From assembly GCA_029210545.1 (NCBI GenBank), contig JARGFV010000034.1, positions 1-22,501 on the forward strand: a DNA stretch of 22,501 bases, read 5' to 3'. The translations under genes were made by a program, and so were the position numbers. Below, piece by piece: positions 1 to 22,501 of the stretch. The DNA is from a bacterium (GTDB lineage Bacteria; BMS3Abin14). Under the pieces are notes generated by a model that did not search any database, was not told the origin of the DNA, and saw only the letters and a list, made by a program, of their open reading frames with translations. The number at the start of each line of letters is the position of its first letter. Position 1 is the stretch's first letter.

Positions 1-75
1 AATGACTTACGGAGTGAGTCATTGATTTGGGCGCCCCGCGCGGGGCGCGTTGATGGACTTTTTGCGAGTCCATCA
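1..75. repeat. Three-hairpin palindromic repeat, possibly truncated by the window edge
   Basis: Three inverted repeats follow one another. Positions 1-10 pair with 14-23 (AATGACTTAC / GTGAGTCATT, one G-T wobble). Positions 31-48 form a perfect 18-bp palindrome, GCGCCCCGCGCGGGGCGC. Positions 51-59 and 67-75 form TGATGGACT / AGTCCATCA around a TTTTGCG loop. Read on the - strand, the last hairpin carries the core GACTCGCAAAAAGTC, which recurs in the ispA insert and in the 10046, 14900 and 22427 copies. It is non-coding and may extend beyond the window's left end. Confidence 0.75.
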
Positions 76-129
76 ACAATAATTATGAAGGAGAAGAGTA
101 TTCTGAAGAAGTTCATCTGTCAAGAGATC

Positions 130-560: not shown

Positions 561-1597
561 TCGACGAGACTTTCATGGACAAAAGGAAACAGGCTGTCGA
601 CGGGGCACTGGAATTTTTCATGCCGCCTGAGGGCACTCATCCCGCCCGACTGGTGGCGGCCATGCGTTACAGCCTGTTCGCCGGGGGCAAGAGGATAAGG
701 CCCATTTTGACTTTGACGGCTTCCGAGGCGGCAGGCGGCAGGATGGAGGACGGCCTTGTGCCGGGCTGTGCCGTGGAGCTGGTGCACACCTATTCCCTCA
801 TCCACGATGATCTGCCGGCAATGGACAACGATGATTTCAGGCGGGGAAGCGCCACCTGCCACAAGGCGTTCGACGAGAGTACCGCGATCCTTGCGGGGGA
901 CGCGCTTCTCACCATGGCTTTCGATCTGCTGTCCACAGGAGAAATGAACGTGTCCGAGCACGTCAGGCTCCGGATGGTCCAGGAACTGTCCCGGGCAGCC
1001 GGATGGCGGGGCATGGTCGGCGGCCAGCAGGTGGACATGGACAGCGAGGGAATGATGGACTCGCAAAACGTCCATCAAGCAGATCACGCCGTGAGGCGGG
1101 AGCTGGGGTGGGGGTGGAACCAGGCGGATTCACTCCGCCTGGAGGGGGAGTCACGCCGGTGGCGTGATCGCGAAATGGCTCGAAGAGACTTTTTGCGAGG
1201 TTATCAGGGAACGGTGCCGGAACTCCCAGTGCTGGAGTATATCCACACCCACAAGACGGGGGCCTTGGTCCGCTGTTCGGTCATCCTGGGCGCACTCGCG
1301 GCCGGCGCGGGGGAAGAGGTTCTGCGGGCTTTCAATACCTATGGTGAAAAGGTAGGCCTGGCCTTCCAGGTCGTGGACGATATCCTGGACGTGATCGCGT
1401 CCACCGAGGAGATGGGCAAGGACCAGGGCAGCGACGCGGCCCGGGGAAAGATCACCTATCCGGCGATCTATGGTCTCGAAGGGGCCAGAGAAAGGGCATT
1501 CCAACTCATCGAGGACGCGAAGGCGGCCGTTGCCGATGTCGATCCCACCGGGCACCTCTCCGGGATCGCGGATTTTGTGCTCCTCAGGAGGCTTTAG
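557..1597 (+). CDS. ispA: Polyprenyl (farnesyl/geranylgeranyl) diphosphate synthase with a 53-codon in-frame insertion
   Basis: Short-chain trans-prenyltransferase that condenses isopentenyl diphosphate with allylic diphosphates to make FPP or GGPP. The first Asp-rich motif is DDLPAMD (residues 84-90) and the second is DDILD (274-278). GMVGGQ and HTHKTGAL are also intact. The 346-residue product is about 50 longer than the family. The excess sits between DMDSEG (ending at G165) and TVPELPVLEYIH (from T219). Removing residues 166-218 leaves 293 residues and restores the usual 7-residue spacing before LEYIH. The extra DNA is a palindromic repeat (separate entry). Start GTG 557 overlaps the xseB stop, and dxs begins 2 nt after the ispA stop. 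Product chain length cannot be decided here. Whether the enzyme remains active is inferred only from the intact frame and motifs. Confidence 0.93.
   Translation: MIDETFMDKRKQAVDGALEFFMPPEGTHPARLVAAMRYSLFAGGKRIRPILTLTASEAAGGRMEDGLVPGCAVELVHTYSLIHDDLPAMDNDDFRRGSATCHKAFDESTAILAGDALLTMAFDLLSTGEMNVSEHVRLRMVQELSRAAGWRGMVGGQQVDMDSEGMMDSQNVHQADHAVRRELGWGWNQADSLRLEGESRRWRDREMARRDFLRGYQGTVPELPVLEYIHTHKTGALVRCSVILGALAAGAGEEVLRAFNTYGEKVGLAFQVVDDILDVIASTEEMGKDQGSDAARGKITYPAIYGLEGARERAFQLIEDAKAAVADVDPTGHLSGIADFVLLRRL
1053..1205 (+). mobile_element. MITE-like palindromic element inserted in frame in ispA
   Basis: A 153-bp element flanked by the direct repeat AGGGAA (1047-1052 and 1206-1211), which looks like a 6-bp target-site duplication. 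Element plus one duplication is 159 bp, exactly 53 codons. Terminal inverted repeats: GATGGACTCGCAAAACGTC (1054-1072) against the complement of 1187-1205, 15 of 19 identical. Internal pairs are 1053-1060 with 1070-1077 (TGATGGAC / GTCCATCA), 1082-1090 with 1161-1169 (GATCACGCC / GGCGTGATC), and 1120-1128 with 1134-1142 (CCAGGCGGA / TCCGCCTGG). The ends share the TCGCAAAA-GTC core with the intergenic repeats of this window. It encodes no transposase and has no stop in the ispA frame. Confidence 0.8.
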
Positions 1598-10037: not shown

Positions 10038-10045
10038 GTAATATT

Positions 10046-10115
10046 GATGGACTCGCAAAGCTTTTCCCTTTCCGTGGAGCGAAAAGTCCCGGATTGGACT
10101 TTTTGCGACCCTATC
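10046..10115. repeat. Partial/chimeric copy of the TCGCAAAAAGTC repeat
   Basis: Left end GATGGACTCGCAAA is the type seen at 1-75 and in ispA. From GCTTTTCCCTTTCC onward it follows the 14900 and 22427 type, ending GGACTTTTTGCGACCCTATC. Stem GCGAAAAGTCC (10079-10089) pairs with GGACTTTTTGC (10096-10106) through one G-T wobble. The partner arm of CTTTTCCCTTTCC is missing, so the element looks internally deleted. It starts 9 nt after the terminator. Confidence 0.75.
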
Positions 10116-13146: not shown

Positions 13147-14886
13147 ATGACAAAGAGTTTAGCGAAAGGACATGTCCCGAAGGTCCTGGTCGTGGACGAC
13201 GACAGGTTCTTCCTGCGCCAGATGGTGGACATCCTCACAGGGGGCGGGTTCGATGTCGAGGGGGTCACCGGCGGTGTGGAGGCCCTCGAAAGCCTCCGGG
13301 ATGGGCAGTTCGATGTCCTCGTTACCGACATCGTGATGAAGGACATGTCCGGGATCGACCTGCTCCGCGAGGTGCGCAGGGAAGACCACCTCACCCCTGT
13401 GATCTGTGTCAGCAGTGTGCGTTCATTCGACAACGTTGTGGATATGATCCGCAACGGGGCATCCGATTTCCTTTCCAAGCCCTTCGATCCAGGTCAGCTC
13501 GTTTCCACCGTGAAGAGTGCCTTCGCCGACTACGAGGTCGCCCTCGAAAAGGAACAGATCGTCGCACGTTCCGACAAGTGGAGCAGGGAACTCCTGACAC
13601 TCCGGCAGCTGGGAGAGGCATCCAGCAAGGAGATGCTCCAGTCCCTGTTCAAACGCACCATAGAGGCGGTGTCAGACACGCTCCAGGTGGAGACAGCCTC
13701 CCTTATGCTCATGGAAGGAGATCACCTCCGGCTGGTGGAGGCCCTGGGCCTTCCCGAGGAGGTCATCGGAAAGGCCACCGTTCCCCTCGGCAAAGGGATA
13801 TCGGGGTACGTGGCCGAGACTGGGAAACCGCTTCTCATCAACGACATCAACAAGCACGAGAAGTTCAGGCCGTCGAAGTTCAAGGCCCAGTACTCGACCC
13901 AGTCGGCCCTTTGTGTGCCCCTTTCGAGGGGGGAGCGTGTTCTCGGGGTCCTCAACGCCAACAACAAGATCAGCGGAGAGGCGTTCACCGGGTCGGACAG
14001 GGACCTGCTGGTGACCATGGCGTCCCAGGTGGCCATGTCCATAGACAACGCACGGCTCTTCGCGGGGCTCGAGGAAAAGGCCGAGGCATTGGAACGGGCT
14101 CACGAGGAACTCGTACGCCTCGACAAGGACAAGACCGAACTGATCCTCAATATTTCCCATGAGCTCAAGACCCCCCTCACCTCCATCATCGGTTTCGCCA
14201 GCCTGATACCGACCCTGGAACTGACCGGGGAAACGGAAAGCCTCATGCAGTTCCTGGGGTTCCTGGAAAATTCCGCTTCCCATCTGAACTACCTCGTGGA
14301 AAGGATCCTGGAGCTTTTCAGGCTGGAGGCGGGCAGGGTGCCGACACAGCTGGAGGCATCCGCTGTGGCGCCCGGTGTCGGCGCCGCCCTGCAGAAACTC
14401 ACCAGTATGCTTGGCGGCCGCAGGACGGTCATGGACATGAGCGGTCTGGAGGATGTGCTGTTCCTTCGCGACAGCAGGCTGTTCACCAGGGCCATGGAAC
14501 TGGTCCTGGAGAACGCGGTGAAGTTCTCCGGGACAGAGACTTCCATTGAGATCGGGGGCCGGTGGCATGAGGTATGTCCGGAGGTCCCGCGGTATGCATT
14601 GGGGAATGATCCCCTGAAGGTTCCGACAGGCATGGCAGGGTGGGTCCAGCTCACGGTGCGTGATCACGGCAAAGGTATGAGAGAAAAGGACATCCCCCTC
14701 ATTTTCGAGAAGTTCAAACAGCTGGGGGATATCATGACCGAAAAGCCGGAGGGGATCGGCCTGGGGCTTTCCATCGCCCGGGCGATCATGGAAAGGCACT
14801 ATGGATCCCTCTGGGCCGATCTGGCCCCGGAAGGGGGAACGAGGCTTCACTTCCTCTTCGCGGGCGTAAGGAAGATGACCTCGTAA
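13147..14886 (+). CDS. REC-GAF sensor histidine kinase
   Basis: Soluble two-component protein of 579 residues with a receiver at the N-terminus. REC (about 11-125) has the acidic cluster D17-D19, phospho-acceptor D61 in VTDIVMKDMSG and K111 in SKPFD. A GAF-like domain (about 150-305: ETASLMLMEGDHLRLVEALG, KGISGYVAETGKPLLI) and a coiled-coil linker follow. The HisKA box NISHELKTPL has H338. A HATPase domain has N456 (N box), DHGKGM and GIGLGLSIARAI. All catalytic positions look intact. There is no transmembrane segment, so input must be cytoplasmic or come through REC phosphorylation. No obvious partner kinase or output regulator lies in the window. The start ATG 13147 lacks a clear ribosome binding site. 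The signal sensed is unknown. Confidence 0.93.
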   Translation: MTKSLAKGHVPKVLVVDDDRFFLRQMVDILTGGGFDVEGVTGGVEALESLRDGQFDVLVTDIVMKDMSGIDLLREVRREDHLTPVICVSSVRSFDNVVDMIRNGASDFLSKPFDPGQLVSTVKSAFADYEVALEKEQIVARSDKWSRELLTLRQLGEASSKEMLQSLFKRTIEAVSDTLQVETASLMLMEGDHLRLVEALGLPEEVIGKATVPLGKGISGYVAETGKPLLINDINKHEKFRPSKFKAQYSTQSALCVPLSRGERVLGVLNANNKISGEAFTGSDRDLLVTMASQVAMSIDNARLFAGLEEKAEALERAHEELVRLDKDKTELILNISHELKTPLTSIIGFASLIPTLELTGETESLMQFLGFLENSASHLNYLVERILELFRLEAGRVPTQLEASAVAPGVGAALQKLTSMLGGRRTVMDMSGLEDVLFLRDSRLFTRAMELVLENAVKFSGTETSIEIGGRWHEVCPEVPRYALGNDPLKVPTGMAGWVQLTVRDHGKGMREKDIPLIFEKFKQLGDIMTEKPEGIGLGLSIARAIMERHYGSLWADLAPEGGTRLHFLFAGVRKMTS

Positions 14887-14899
14887 TAAGTCATCGACT

Positions 14900-15027
14900 G
14901 ATAGGGTCGCAAAAGTCCGTGTGGGACTTTTGCGATATTCCAGTAATCTCCGTGAGGAAGGCGAAAACCACGCTTTTCGCCTTCCGTTGAGCGGAAAGTC
15001 CCGGATTGGACTTTCCGCGACCCTATA
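14900..15027. mobile_element. Full three-hairpin TCGCAAAAAGTC repeat element between the kinase gene and argJ
   Basis: About 127 bp bounded by ATAGGGTCGC (14901-14910) and GCGACCCTAT (15017-15026). Hairpin 1: TCGCAAAAGTCC / GGACTTTTGCGA (14907-14918 / 14924-14935), perfect. Hairpin 2: GGAAGGCGAAAA / TTTTCGCCTTCC (14956-14967 / 14974-14985), perfect. Hairpin 3: GCGGAAAGTCC / GGACTTTCCGC (14991-15001 / 15008-15018), perfect. No coding capacity and no clear target duplication. Its right end is 4 nt from the argJ ribosome binding site. Confidence 0.8.
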
Positions 15028-15043
15028 TAGAAAGGACCGGACG

Positions 15044-16228
15044 ATGAAGCTTGAAGTCCCTGGTTTTAAGGCAGCGGCCGTTGCGGCCGACATACGGGGC
15101 AAGGGCGACGGGCGTCTGGATCTCGGCCTCGTGTTCGCCGGGGACGGCGCTTCGGTCGCAGCTGTTTTCACCACCAACGCGGTCGCGGCCCCTCCCGTGG
15201 CCATCTGCCGTGAAAGGGTGGCAGACGGGACGGCACGGGCTATCCTGGTCAACAGCGGGAACGCGAACTGCATGACCCTGTCTCAGGGGAGGGAGGACGC
15301 GCTGAAGCTGTCAGGCCGTATCGCCGGGCTGCTGGGTGTTTCCGAGGACGATGTCCTGCCCTGTTCCACCGGGGTTATCGGCCAGAGGCTGCCGGTCGGC
15401 AGGATGATCGATGCGCTCGAACCGCTGGTGGACGGTCTCTCCCCGGACGGAATCGGGTCCTTTTCCATGGCCATCCTCACCACCGACACCGGACCCAAGA
15501 GATCGTCCCGGGAGATCTCCCTGGACGGCGGGACGGTCCGGGTCGTCGGGGTCGCCAAGGGCGCCGGCATGATCGCCCCCGACATGGCTACGATGCTGTG
15601 CTACATCCTAACCGACGGGGCCGTCGATCCCGGCAACCTGAGGGATATCCTCGTCCCGGCGGTGGACAGGAGTTTCAACGCCATCACCATCGACGGGGAC
15701 ATGAGTACCAACGACACGGTGATCCTCATGGCTTCCGGAAAGGGCCCTGAAGTCAGAGAGGCTTCCGACCTGAAGCTTTTTGCCGAAGCAGTGAGCCAGG
15801 TTTGCGAGGAACTGGCCGACATGATCGTGGCCGACGGCGAGGGCGCGACGAAAGTAGTGACAGTCAGGGTCTCCGGCGCCGTGCATGATGATGACGCGCG
15901 GCGGGCGGCCCGGTCCATCGCCGAGTCGCTGCTGGTCAAAACGGCCCTTGCCGCCGCCGACCCCAACTGGGGCCGGATCGCCGCCGCGGCCGGTTATTCA
16001 GGCGCCGTGATCAACCCCGGCCGGATCGCCCTTTCCATCGGAGACGTGACGGTCCTGGAGGATGGAGAGATCCTTGGCGGATACGATGAGTCGGAAGCCG
16101 TCAAGGTGATGAAACGGGACCGGTACGGGATCGGGATCACCATCGGTGACGGCCCGGGGACGGCGACGATCAAGACGTGTGATCTTACGGAGGAATACGT
16201 TCGCATCAACTGTGAATACAGGACGTGA
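15044..16228 (+). CDS. argJ: Glutamate N-acetyltransferase / possibly bifunctional ornithine acetyltransferase
   Basis: Transfers the acetyl group of N-acetylornithine to glutamate, closing the acetyl cycle of arginine synthesis. Some ArgJ also make N-acetylglutamate from acetyl-CoA. It is 394 residues, of normal length. The self-cleavage site is KGAGMIAPDMATML, with nucleophile T183 that becomes the N-terminus of the beta chain. NSGNANCMT, TTDTGPK, DGDMSTNDTV and DPNWGRI are conserved blocks. ATG 15044 (MKLEVPGFKAAAVAADI) has AAAGGA at 15031-15036. The longer frame from 14921 runs through the hairpin element and is rejected. The stop lies in an inverted repeat. With a separate ArgA-type gene at 7026, ArgJ need not be bifunctional here, but sequence alone does not decide. 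Confidence 0.95.
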   Translation: MKLEVPGFKAAAVAADIRGKGDGRLDLGLVFAGDGASVAAVFTTNAVAAPPVAICRERVADGTARAILVNSGNANCMTLSQGREDALKLSGRIAGLLGVSEDDVLPCSTGVIGQRLPVGRMIDALEPLVDGLSPDGIGSFSMAILTTDTGPKRSSREISLDGGTVRVVGVAKGAGMIAPDMATMLCYILTDGAVDPGNLRDILVPAVDRSFNAITIDGDMSTNDTVILMASGKGPEVREASDLKLFAEAVSQVCEELADMIVADGEGATKVVTVRVSGAVHDDDARRAARSIAESLLVKTALAAADPNWGRIAAAAGYSGAVINPGRIALSIGDVTVLEDGEILGGYDESEAVKVMKRDRYGIGITIGDGPGTATIKTCDLTEEYVRINCEYRT

Positions 16229-16458: not shown

Positions 16459-17352
16459 ATGGCAGTGATCACCATGAAACAGCTGCTGGAGGCCGGCGTC
16501 CATTTCGGCCACCAGACCCGCCGCTGGAACCCGAAGATGAAAAAGTACATCTTCGGTGCCCGGAACGGCATCTACATCATCGATCTGCAGAAGACCCTGA
16601 GGCAGTTCAAGGAGTCCTACAGGTTCATCCGGGAGCTGTCGGCCGGCGGGGGCAAGATCATGTTTGTAGGTACCAAGAAACAGGCACAGGAAGCCATCTT
16701 CGAGGAGGCCCAGCGGTGCGGCATGCCCTACGTGAACCACAGGTGGCTCGGCGGCATGATGACCAACTTCGCCACCATCAAGAAAAGCGTCGGCCGGCTC
16801 AAGAAATACGAGACAATGGAAGTGGAACAGAACTGGGGCGGGCTCACCAAGAAGGAGATCCTGAACCTGACCAAGGAAAAGGAAAAGCTCTCCATGTTCC
16901 TCGAGGGGATAAAAGACATGGGCAAGCTCCCCGAGGCGATGTTCGTGATCGATCCCAAGCGTGAGGAGATCGCCGTCAAGGAGGCCCGCAAGCTCGGCAT
17001 CCCTGTCATCGCCGTAGTGGACACCAACTGTGATCCTGACATGGTCGACCACGTTATCCCGGGTAACGACGACGCTATCCGGGCCATCCGCCTGTTTGCC
17101 TCCAAGGTCGCTGATGCCGTGATCGAGGGCCAGCAGCTGGTGGGTGCGGGTGAAGTGGGAATGGTCGAGGCTCCCGCAGGTGAGGAGCAACCCGCTCCCG
17201 TAGCGCCTGAAACGGCTGTTGAAGCTCCGGCCCCCGAGGAGGCTGTTGTAGACCAGGCCGTACCCGTGGAGACGGCTCCCGCCCGGAAAGTGACTGAGGA
17301 ACCAGTTCGGGATGAGGCTGAGGTAAAGGAAAATGAGGAGGAGAAGGCATGA
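16459..17352 (+). CDS. rpsB: 30S ribosomal protein S2 with acidic Pro/Ala-rich C-terminal tail
   Basis: S2 joins the small subunit late and helps S1 bind. It starts [27 protein letters not shown], with [29 protein letters not shown] and [23 protein letters not shown] all typical. ATG 16459 has AAGGAGG at 16444-16450; the longer frame is leader sequence. At 297 residues it is about 55-60 longer than E. coli S2. The extra part (from about residue 235) is low complexity, rich in E, A, P and V, and ends KENEEEKA. The tail is probably disordered. The stop overlaps the tsf start (ATGA), consistent with equal expression of S2 and EF-Ts. Confidence 0.97.
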
Positions 17353-17966
17353 GCATCAGCGCATCTTTGGTCAAGGAGTTGAGGGAGAAGACCGGTGCCG
17401 GTTTCATGGATTGCAAGGAAGCCCTGAAGGAGTGTGACGGCGATTCGGATAAGGCGGTGGATTACCTGCGCAAGAAAGGCCTCTCAGCAGCCTCGAAGAG
17501 AGCCGGTCGCGCCGCCAGCGAAGGGGTCGTCGGTTCCTATATCCACATGGGCGGCAAGATCGGTGTCATCGTCGAGGTGAACTGCGAGACTGATTTTGTG
17601 GCCCGGACGGACGATTTCCAGGAGCTGGTGGCCGATATCGCCATGCAGGTTGCCGCTGCGCGCCCCCTTTATGTGCGCCGCGACGAAGTGACTGCCGTTC
17701 ATCTCGAGAAGGAGAGGGAGATCTACAAGGCCCAGGCTCTCGAATCGGGCAAGCCCGAAAAAGTTGTGGACAAGATCGTTGAGGGCAAGGTGGAGAAGTA
17801 CTTCCAGGAGATCTGCCTTGAGGAACAGGAGTTTATCCGGGAGAAAGGCACCAGGATCCTGGATCACGTCAAATCGGTGGCCGGAAAGCTGGGTGAGAAC
17901 GTCCGGATCAACCGTTTTGCCCGGTTCGAGGTGGGTGAGGGGCAGGAGAAAGCTCCTGCCTGCTAA
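17349..17966 (+). CDS. tsf: Elongation factor Ts (short form)
   Basis: Guanine nucleotide exchange factor for EF-Tu. The 205-residue product is the short form, shorter than the 283 of E. coli, with a single core domain. The N-terminal UBA-like domain ([23 protein letters not shown] ending [12 protein letters not shown]) is followed by the EF-Tu-contacting block [19 protein letters not shown]. The end, [13 protein letters not shown], is typical. ATG 17349 overlaps the rpsB stop, with AGGAGG upstream inside rpsB. The last codons form an inverted repeat just before the stop. Confidence 0.97.
17941..17960. repeat. Inverted repeat at the 3' end of tsf
   Basis: GGCAGGAG-AAAG-CTCCTGCC, perfect 8-bp arms, ends 3 nt before the tsf TAA. 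No T-tract follows. It might attenuate or stabilise the rpsB-tsf message relative to pyrH. Confidence 0.45.
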
Positions 17967-22426: not shown

Positions 22427-22501
22427 GACAGGGTCGCAAAAAGTCCAATCCGGGACTTTTTGCTCAACGGAAAGGGAAAAGCGTCGTTTTCCCTTTCCTC
22501 A
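22427..22501. mobile_element. TCGCAAAAAGTC repeat element, inverted relative to 14900 copy and cut by the window end
   Basis: Starts GACAGGGTCGCAAAAAGTCC. Stem GCAAAAAGTCC / GGACTTTTTGC is at 22436-22446 / 22453-22463. Stem GGAAAGGGAAAA / TTTTCCCTTTCC is at 22469-22480 / 22487-22498. Its reverse complement aligns without gaps to 14953-15027, with nearly all differences in paired stem positions. Confidence 0.8.

Follow-up and report, generated by a model that had tools for sequence, protein, structure and literature searches.

In-frame insertion of a MITE-like palindromic repeat in the farnesyl diphosphate synthase gene of an uncultured bacterium

The gene encoding farnesyl diphosphate (FPP) synthase, ispA, in the window analyzed here (the entire contig 34, 22,501 nucleotides, of a metagenome-assembled genome, MAG, comprising 241 contigs and 2.72 Mb with 97.5% completeness) is interrupted by DNA of a repeat family dispersed through the genome, and its reading frame remains open. 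We consider it very probable that a non-autonomous, MITE-like palindromic element of the family termed family B below was inserted into ispA with a target duplication of 5-6 bp, added 159 bp, and is read through to give an enzyme of 346 residues that tolerates the insert.

The insert in ispA and the empty site in relatives

The ispA gene extends from position 557 to 1597 on the forward strand, and its product (346 aa) was assigned by NCBIfam FPPsyn NF045485 and Pfam PF00348. The former gave 336 bits, above the cut-off, in two stretches parted by the insert. The gene is neighbored by xseB on one side and dxs on the other, and the order xseB-ispA-dxs is shared with relatives, in which dxs directly followed ispA where checked and xseB preceded it in all four genomes tested. 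The nearest named records among the search matches were the MAGs CP070698 (bin582), JALHUC010000161 (PFL40), and QIEJ01000268 (SZUA-204).

In a search of 41 genomes, the IspA sequences of relatives matched residues 1-166 and 217-346 of the window protein at adjacent coordinates, and an alignment with 29 relatives contained one 53-residue gap in the close relatives opposite the window IspA. Twenty-eight of the 29 span the site, and in these DMDSEG or its counterpart runs straight into the segment before LEYIH. The remaining one (L041) stops at the insertion site. Residues 166-218, suspected in the original prediction to be peculiar to this protein, are thus missing from all 28, and their removal leaves 346-53 = 293 residues with the predicted family spacing between DMDSEG and LEYIH. 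The identity to the proteins of the same bacterial family was approximately 66-76% in the N-terminal flank and 58-75% in the C-terminal flank. Judged from the empty sites in these sequences, the 53 residues are an insertion. Because all of the genomes compared lie outside the genus of the window, the age of the insertion is bounded only by the divergence from other genera.

At the nucleotide level, AGGGAA occurs at positions 1047-1052 and 1206-1211 of the forward strand, precisely 159 bp or 53 codons apart as originally described, and we regard the two as the left (AGGGAA or GGGAA) and right target-site duplications, since duplications of 5-6 bp are typical of the repeat family (see below). 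The element proper (153 bp; positions 1053-1205, forward strand) is read in frame as MMDSQNVHQ...RRDFLRGYQ, and the predicted translation of the insert includes, for example, the peptide ELGWGWNQADSLR. Its assignment to family B draws on the repeats of the genome, homologues in sister genera, the absence from the IspA of relatives, and hexamer use. The left end is a terminal palindrome, TGATGGAC-TCGCAAAAC-GTCCATCA (1053-1077, forward strand), of which the end motif also occurs in intergenic repeats. Two internal hairpins follow on the forward strand, namely CCAGGCGG..CCGCCTGG at 1120-1142 and TCACGCC..GGCGTGA at 1151-1167, and the right terminal inverted repeat, ACTTTTTGCGAGGTTATCA, lies at 1188-1206 on the reverse strand, this end being conserved in copies from three other genomes. 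The ends of the element are TGATGGACTCGCAAA. The predicted match of 15/19 between the terminal inverted repeats (TGATGGACTCGCAAAACGT vs TGATAACCTCGCAAAAAGT) holds if the terminal A at position 1206 is included. This base may be part of the element (154 bp, with GGGAA as a 5-bp duplication) or of the duplication (153 bp, with AGGGAA as a 6-bp duplication), alternatives between which a single copy cannot decide, and the family-wide statistics favor a duplication beginning with A for the repeat family.

The element was predicted to fold as RNA with -71.5 kcal/mol (z -4.4 against its shuffles), and no intron or other RNA family was matched in an Rfam search. In family B, RNAalifold found two-sided changes in just 5 of 31 pairs, and the support for a conserved RNA structure is therefore modest.

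The repeat family and its mobility

A 165-bp query yielded at least 47 BLAST matches in its own genome, four of which, including itself, were long (scores were computed for 40 of the 227 initial candidates). The end motif TTTTGCGAGTCCATCA occurred 238 times in the 2.72-Mb MAG with up to two mismatches, while its reversed control never occurred, bearing out the claim that the ends of the element resemble the intergenic repeats. With up to one mismatch, the motif was common in several genomes of the same bacterial family (32, 23, 19, and 13 matches) and had no match in 29 genomes outside that family. No match was found among plasmid records.

A profile search with nhmmer, covering 2.0 of the 2.72 Mb, distinguished the common family A (approximately 156 bp) from the rarer, ispA-like family B (153 bp for the ispA copy and 163 bp for a second copy in a gene, described below). 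As the iterated search slid from the ispA-type element toward the commoner family A, the two families were treated separately. Full-length copies of family B are present in sister genera. Repeat copies in these genera were intergenic or at gene ends, none being clearly within a gene. The ispA element is approximately 15% diverged from its own nearest sister copy, with its frame still undamaged.

The window itself contains four further copies, all of family A. An almost full-length copy was detected by nhmmer at 14874-15021 (forward strand), between the genes at 13147-14886 and 15044-16228, and a partial intergenic copy is supported by repeat and nhmmer matches at 10039-10115 (forward strand). 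The other two are ended by the contig ends, namely an intergenic copy at 1-85 (forward strand; nhmmer match 77-3) and a copy at 22427-22501 (reverse strand; repeat and nhmmer matches). Altogether, 63 of the 174 contig ends surveyed in the MAG fall within the repeat. Because contigs terminate inside the repeat so often, the family is probably a main cause of the fragmented assembly.

The features defining a MITE, apart from a known parent, are present: a length within 70-300 bp with no transposase gene, terminal inverted repeats (15/19 in ispA) with ends common to the copies, multiple dispersed copies, and target-site duplications. Among 62 copies with definable ends, 27 were flanked by exact direct repeats of 5 bp (shuffled mean 1.8) and six, the AGGGAA of ispA among them, by those of 6 bp (shuffled mean 0.17), such that around half of the intact copies bear exact duplications of 5-6 bp, far more than the shuffled controls. 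In the flanks of the family A copies (L141-L260), the duplications begin with A, and TG is frequently the next dinucleotide on the right side, which suggests ANNNN-TG as the target preference.

No transposase sharing the ends of the element was recognized by eye among the repeat-flanked genes in the 2.0 of 2.72 Mb surveyed. Multi-copy transposons are often absent from MAGs. Two genes for Y1 (IS200/RAYT-type) transposases were found (G000:C27:11754-12113, L315; G000:C150:1874-2200, L321), and no Y1_Tnp gene was detected in a repeat-rich sister genome (G011). Target duplications are not expected from the Y1 tyrosine transposase of a REP/RAYT system. Since the repeats bear such duplications and are units of 150-160 bp rather than the 20-40 bp of REPs, we set the Y1 transposase aside as the mover. 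An element of the repeat superfamily of this bacterial family would instead have been mobilized in trans, presumably by a DDE-type transposase, and would have landed in ispA with duplication of 5-6 bp of the target.

Copies within genes

The surveyed DNA is 85% coding, and approximately 185 of the 217 strong copies would be expected in genes if placement were blind. Only two clean interior insertions were found (approximately 1%), and the copies are overwhelmingly intergenic; note that the gene calls come from a simple, purpose-written hexamer gene finder and not from a curated annotation. The second case is a gene for a redox protein with a CCG domain (Pfam PF02754) on another contig (L197, C25; gene 16683-17873, element 17422-17584), which gained 56 residues in frame that are missing in five relatives. 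This copy has neither a clean target duplication nor matched edge codons, and retains the pairing of the hairpin corresponding to 1120-1142 via CCAGACG/CGTCTGG.

Two further genes were left uncounted. In an uncharacterized protein (C6 P0002; L154, 14687-16039), a mini copy of approximately 48 bp (LMDSQKVSSSHFAGLSS) lies at about 15369-15415 in a variable acidic linker, where sequence variability in the alignment prevents proof of an insertion. In a conserved uncharacterized protein (C61 P0003; L234, 12737-14488, reverse strand), repeat DNA makes up the C-terminal tail, beyond which lies an assembly gap given as a run of N.

The second insertion bears on whether ispA was assembled correctly. 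Reads from two places or strains could have been joined through the repeat within ispA, given that the repeat terminates many contigs of the MAG and that one such terminus is 1 kb away from ispA. A chimera of this kind would not give an exact 6-bp duplication, an open frame, no loss of any residue, and xseB upstream plus dxs downstream as in the relatives, and the CCG-domain gene shows the same pattern on its own contig. Thus, we regard an assembly error, raised as a caveat in the original prediction, as extremely unlikely. Neither of the other two grounds for rejection given there applies, as the residues are missing from relatives and the genome holds many more copies of the element.

The inserts in ispA and the CCG-domain gene are read in the same frame of the element, starting with MDSQ or VDSQ, and both contain SRRWRDR. 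The frame is preserved across ispA because the 159 bp added make up whole codons and the element can be read in one open frame (MDSQ...). Nevertheless, the MDSQ-type frame is open in around half of the related copies, and some open frame exists in most family A copies; we therefore rejected the open frame as a sign of selection. Among 6,583 coding windows, 99.6% and 100% had higher hexamer scores than the two inserts, whose flanks scored normally, and the codon use of both inserts is non-coding-like. The shared frame and SRRWRDR might be taken to mean that selection favored the 53 residues for a function of their own, for example as an interaction loop. However, the common stretch is explained by the shared DNA, the insert is poorly modeled (see below) with non-coding-like codon use, and most copies lie outside genes, making a selected function very unlikely.

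Alternatively, the insert could be removed or skipped at expression, by RNA processing or by ribosomal bypass of the hairpin. T4 gene 60, in which bypass takes place, has a GGA codon at both edges, and the ispA insert combines a strong hairpin with matched GGA codons at its edges. Matched edge codons are, however, an automatic result of the target duplication and are lacking in the CCG copy, the Rfam search gave no intron, and bypass would not need the inserted frame to be free of stop codons. We see hardly any probability in removal or bypass, and retain read-through as the preferred reading.

It is also conceivable, albeit rather doubtful, that family B constitutes a subfamily of MITEs adapted to life in genes, in which element and target duplication together add up to whole codons (as in both gene copies), the MDSQ frame tends to be open, and conserved enzymes are enlarged. 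If this were true, palindromes that code for protein would have arisen in an uncultured lineage independently of those in Rickettsia.

The enlarged enzyme and its counterparts in other bacteria

As originally claimed, the frame is open throughout and both Asp-rich motifs survive. GGQ-D and HKTG are also unbroken, and the alignment columns of D84, D85, D90, G156-Q157, D160, H230, K233-T234, and D274-D275 are invariant. An AlphaFold2 model of IspA with the insert (40 sequences) had a mean pLDDT of 86.7. Most core blocks exceeded 90, a few loops being lower, and those of the insert, which includes two low-confidence helices, were at 44-74. Its closest PDB matches were GPP and FPP synthases (Z approximately 40, rmsd 1.6-1.9). 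The model suggests that the insert is tolerated in a surface loop, and read-through would yield an FPP synthase in which 53 extra residues, probably flexible, protrude between the GGQ-D helix and the HKTG motif.

No further FPP-synthase-type gene besides ispA was found in the 97.5% complete genome; the one remaining prenyl synthase gene (C85) matched octaprenyl-type models best, under their curated cut-offs. As the sole gene of this type found, the enlarged ispA is probably still functional and probably the working FPP synthase of the genome. The insertion could also be real but have inactivated IspA, or be carried by no more than a fraction of the population, as a recent deleterious allele caught in the assembly, and the foreign codon use of the insert fits such a history. 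The intact catalytic motifs, the open frame, the well-formed core of the model, the sole gene, and a frame undamaged despite approximately 15% divergence from the nearest sister copy argue against this scenario, which we judge to be unlikely. In the reading we prefer, the insert would be translated, the enzyme active, and the effect on the host neutral, with selection retaining only those insertions that spare frame, fold, and activity.

The original prediction likened the element to the Rickettsia palindromic elements (RPEs) as a selfish repeat. This likeness is supported, as RPEs are, according to a review (PMC10969869), palindromes of approximately 150 bp found in frame in unrelated conserved genes, with compatible folds and a recurring peptide frame, and the present family likewise entered conserved protein genes (ispA and the CCG-domain gene) in frame. 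The likeness does not extend to frequency: nearly half of the RPE copies are reported in ORFs (Ogata 2000, 2002, as reviewed in PMC10969869), in contrast to the two clean cases here in another host lineage. Compared by description, the ORF share is far lower, and we therefore do not file the ispA element as an RPE.

QMITE1 and QMITE2 of Coxiella share terminal inverted repeats, direct repeats, truncated REP-like forms, and a chiefly intergenic location with a few in-frame fusions (PMC5896051). The direct repeats of QMITE2 are 7-9 bp, in contrast to 5-6 bp here, and the gene cases quoted for QMITEs are hypothetical proteins or C-terminal extensions, whereas the present ones lie in the middle of conserved enzymes (PMC5896051). 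The GTAG/CGTC REPs are likewise palindromic repeats within conserved genes of several free-living bacteria but are 20-40 bp long, carry a GTAG or CGTC tag, and are tied to tyrosine (RAYT) transposases, in contrast to the units of 150-160 bp with target duplications found here (PMC3733652). On this comparison, the ispA element has the defining features of a MITE, a known parent excepted, and works like an RPE. As the mechanism resembles those of RPEs and of the REP/MITE insertions in other bacteria, the type of event is already known; within the limits of the search, repeat family, lineage, and target enzyme are all new.

In-frame palindromic insertions became famous through Rickettsia, in which they could be put down to genome decay and to selection being relaxed. 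A similar mechanism is considered conceivable in other prokaryotes (PMC10969869, a 2024 review). The present ispA is a case with good support from a different lineage, one not yet cultured, with the sole FPP-synthase-type gene found, empty sites, target duplications, and a second gene, and offers a clean system in which to examine how enzymes accommodate around 50 foreign residues.
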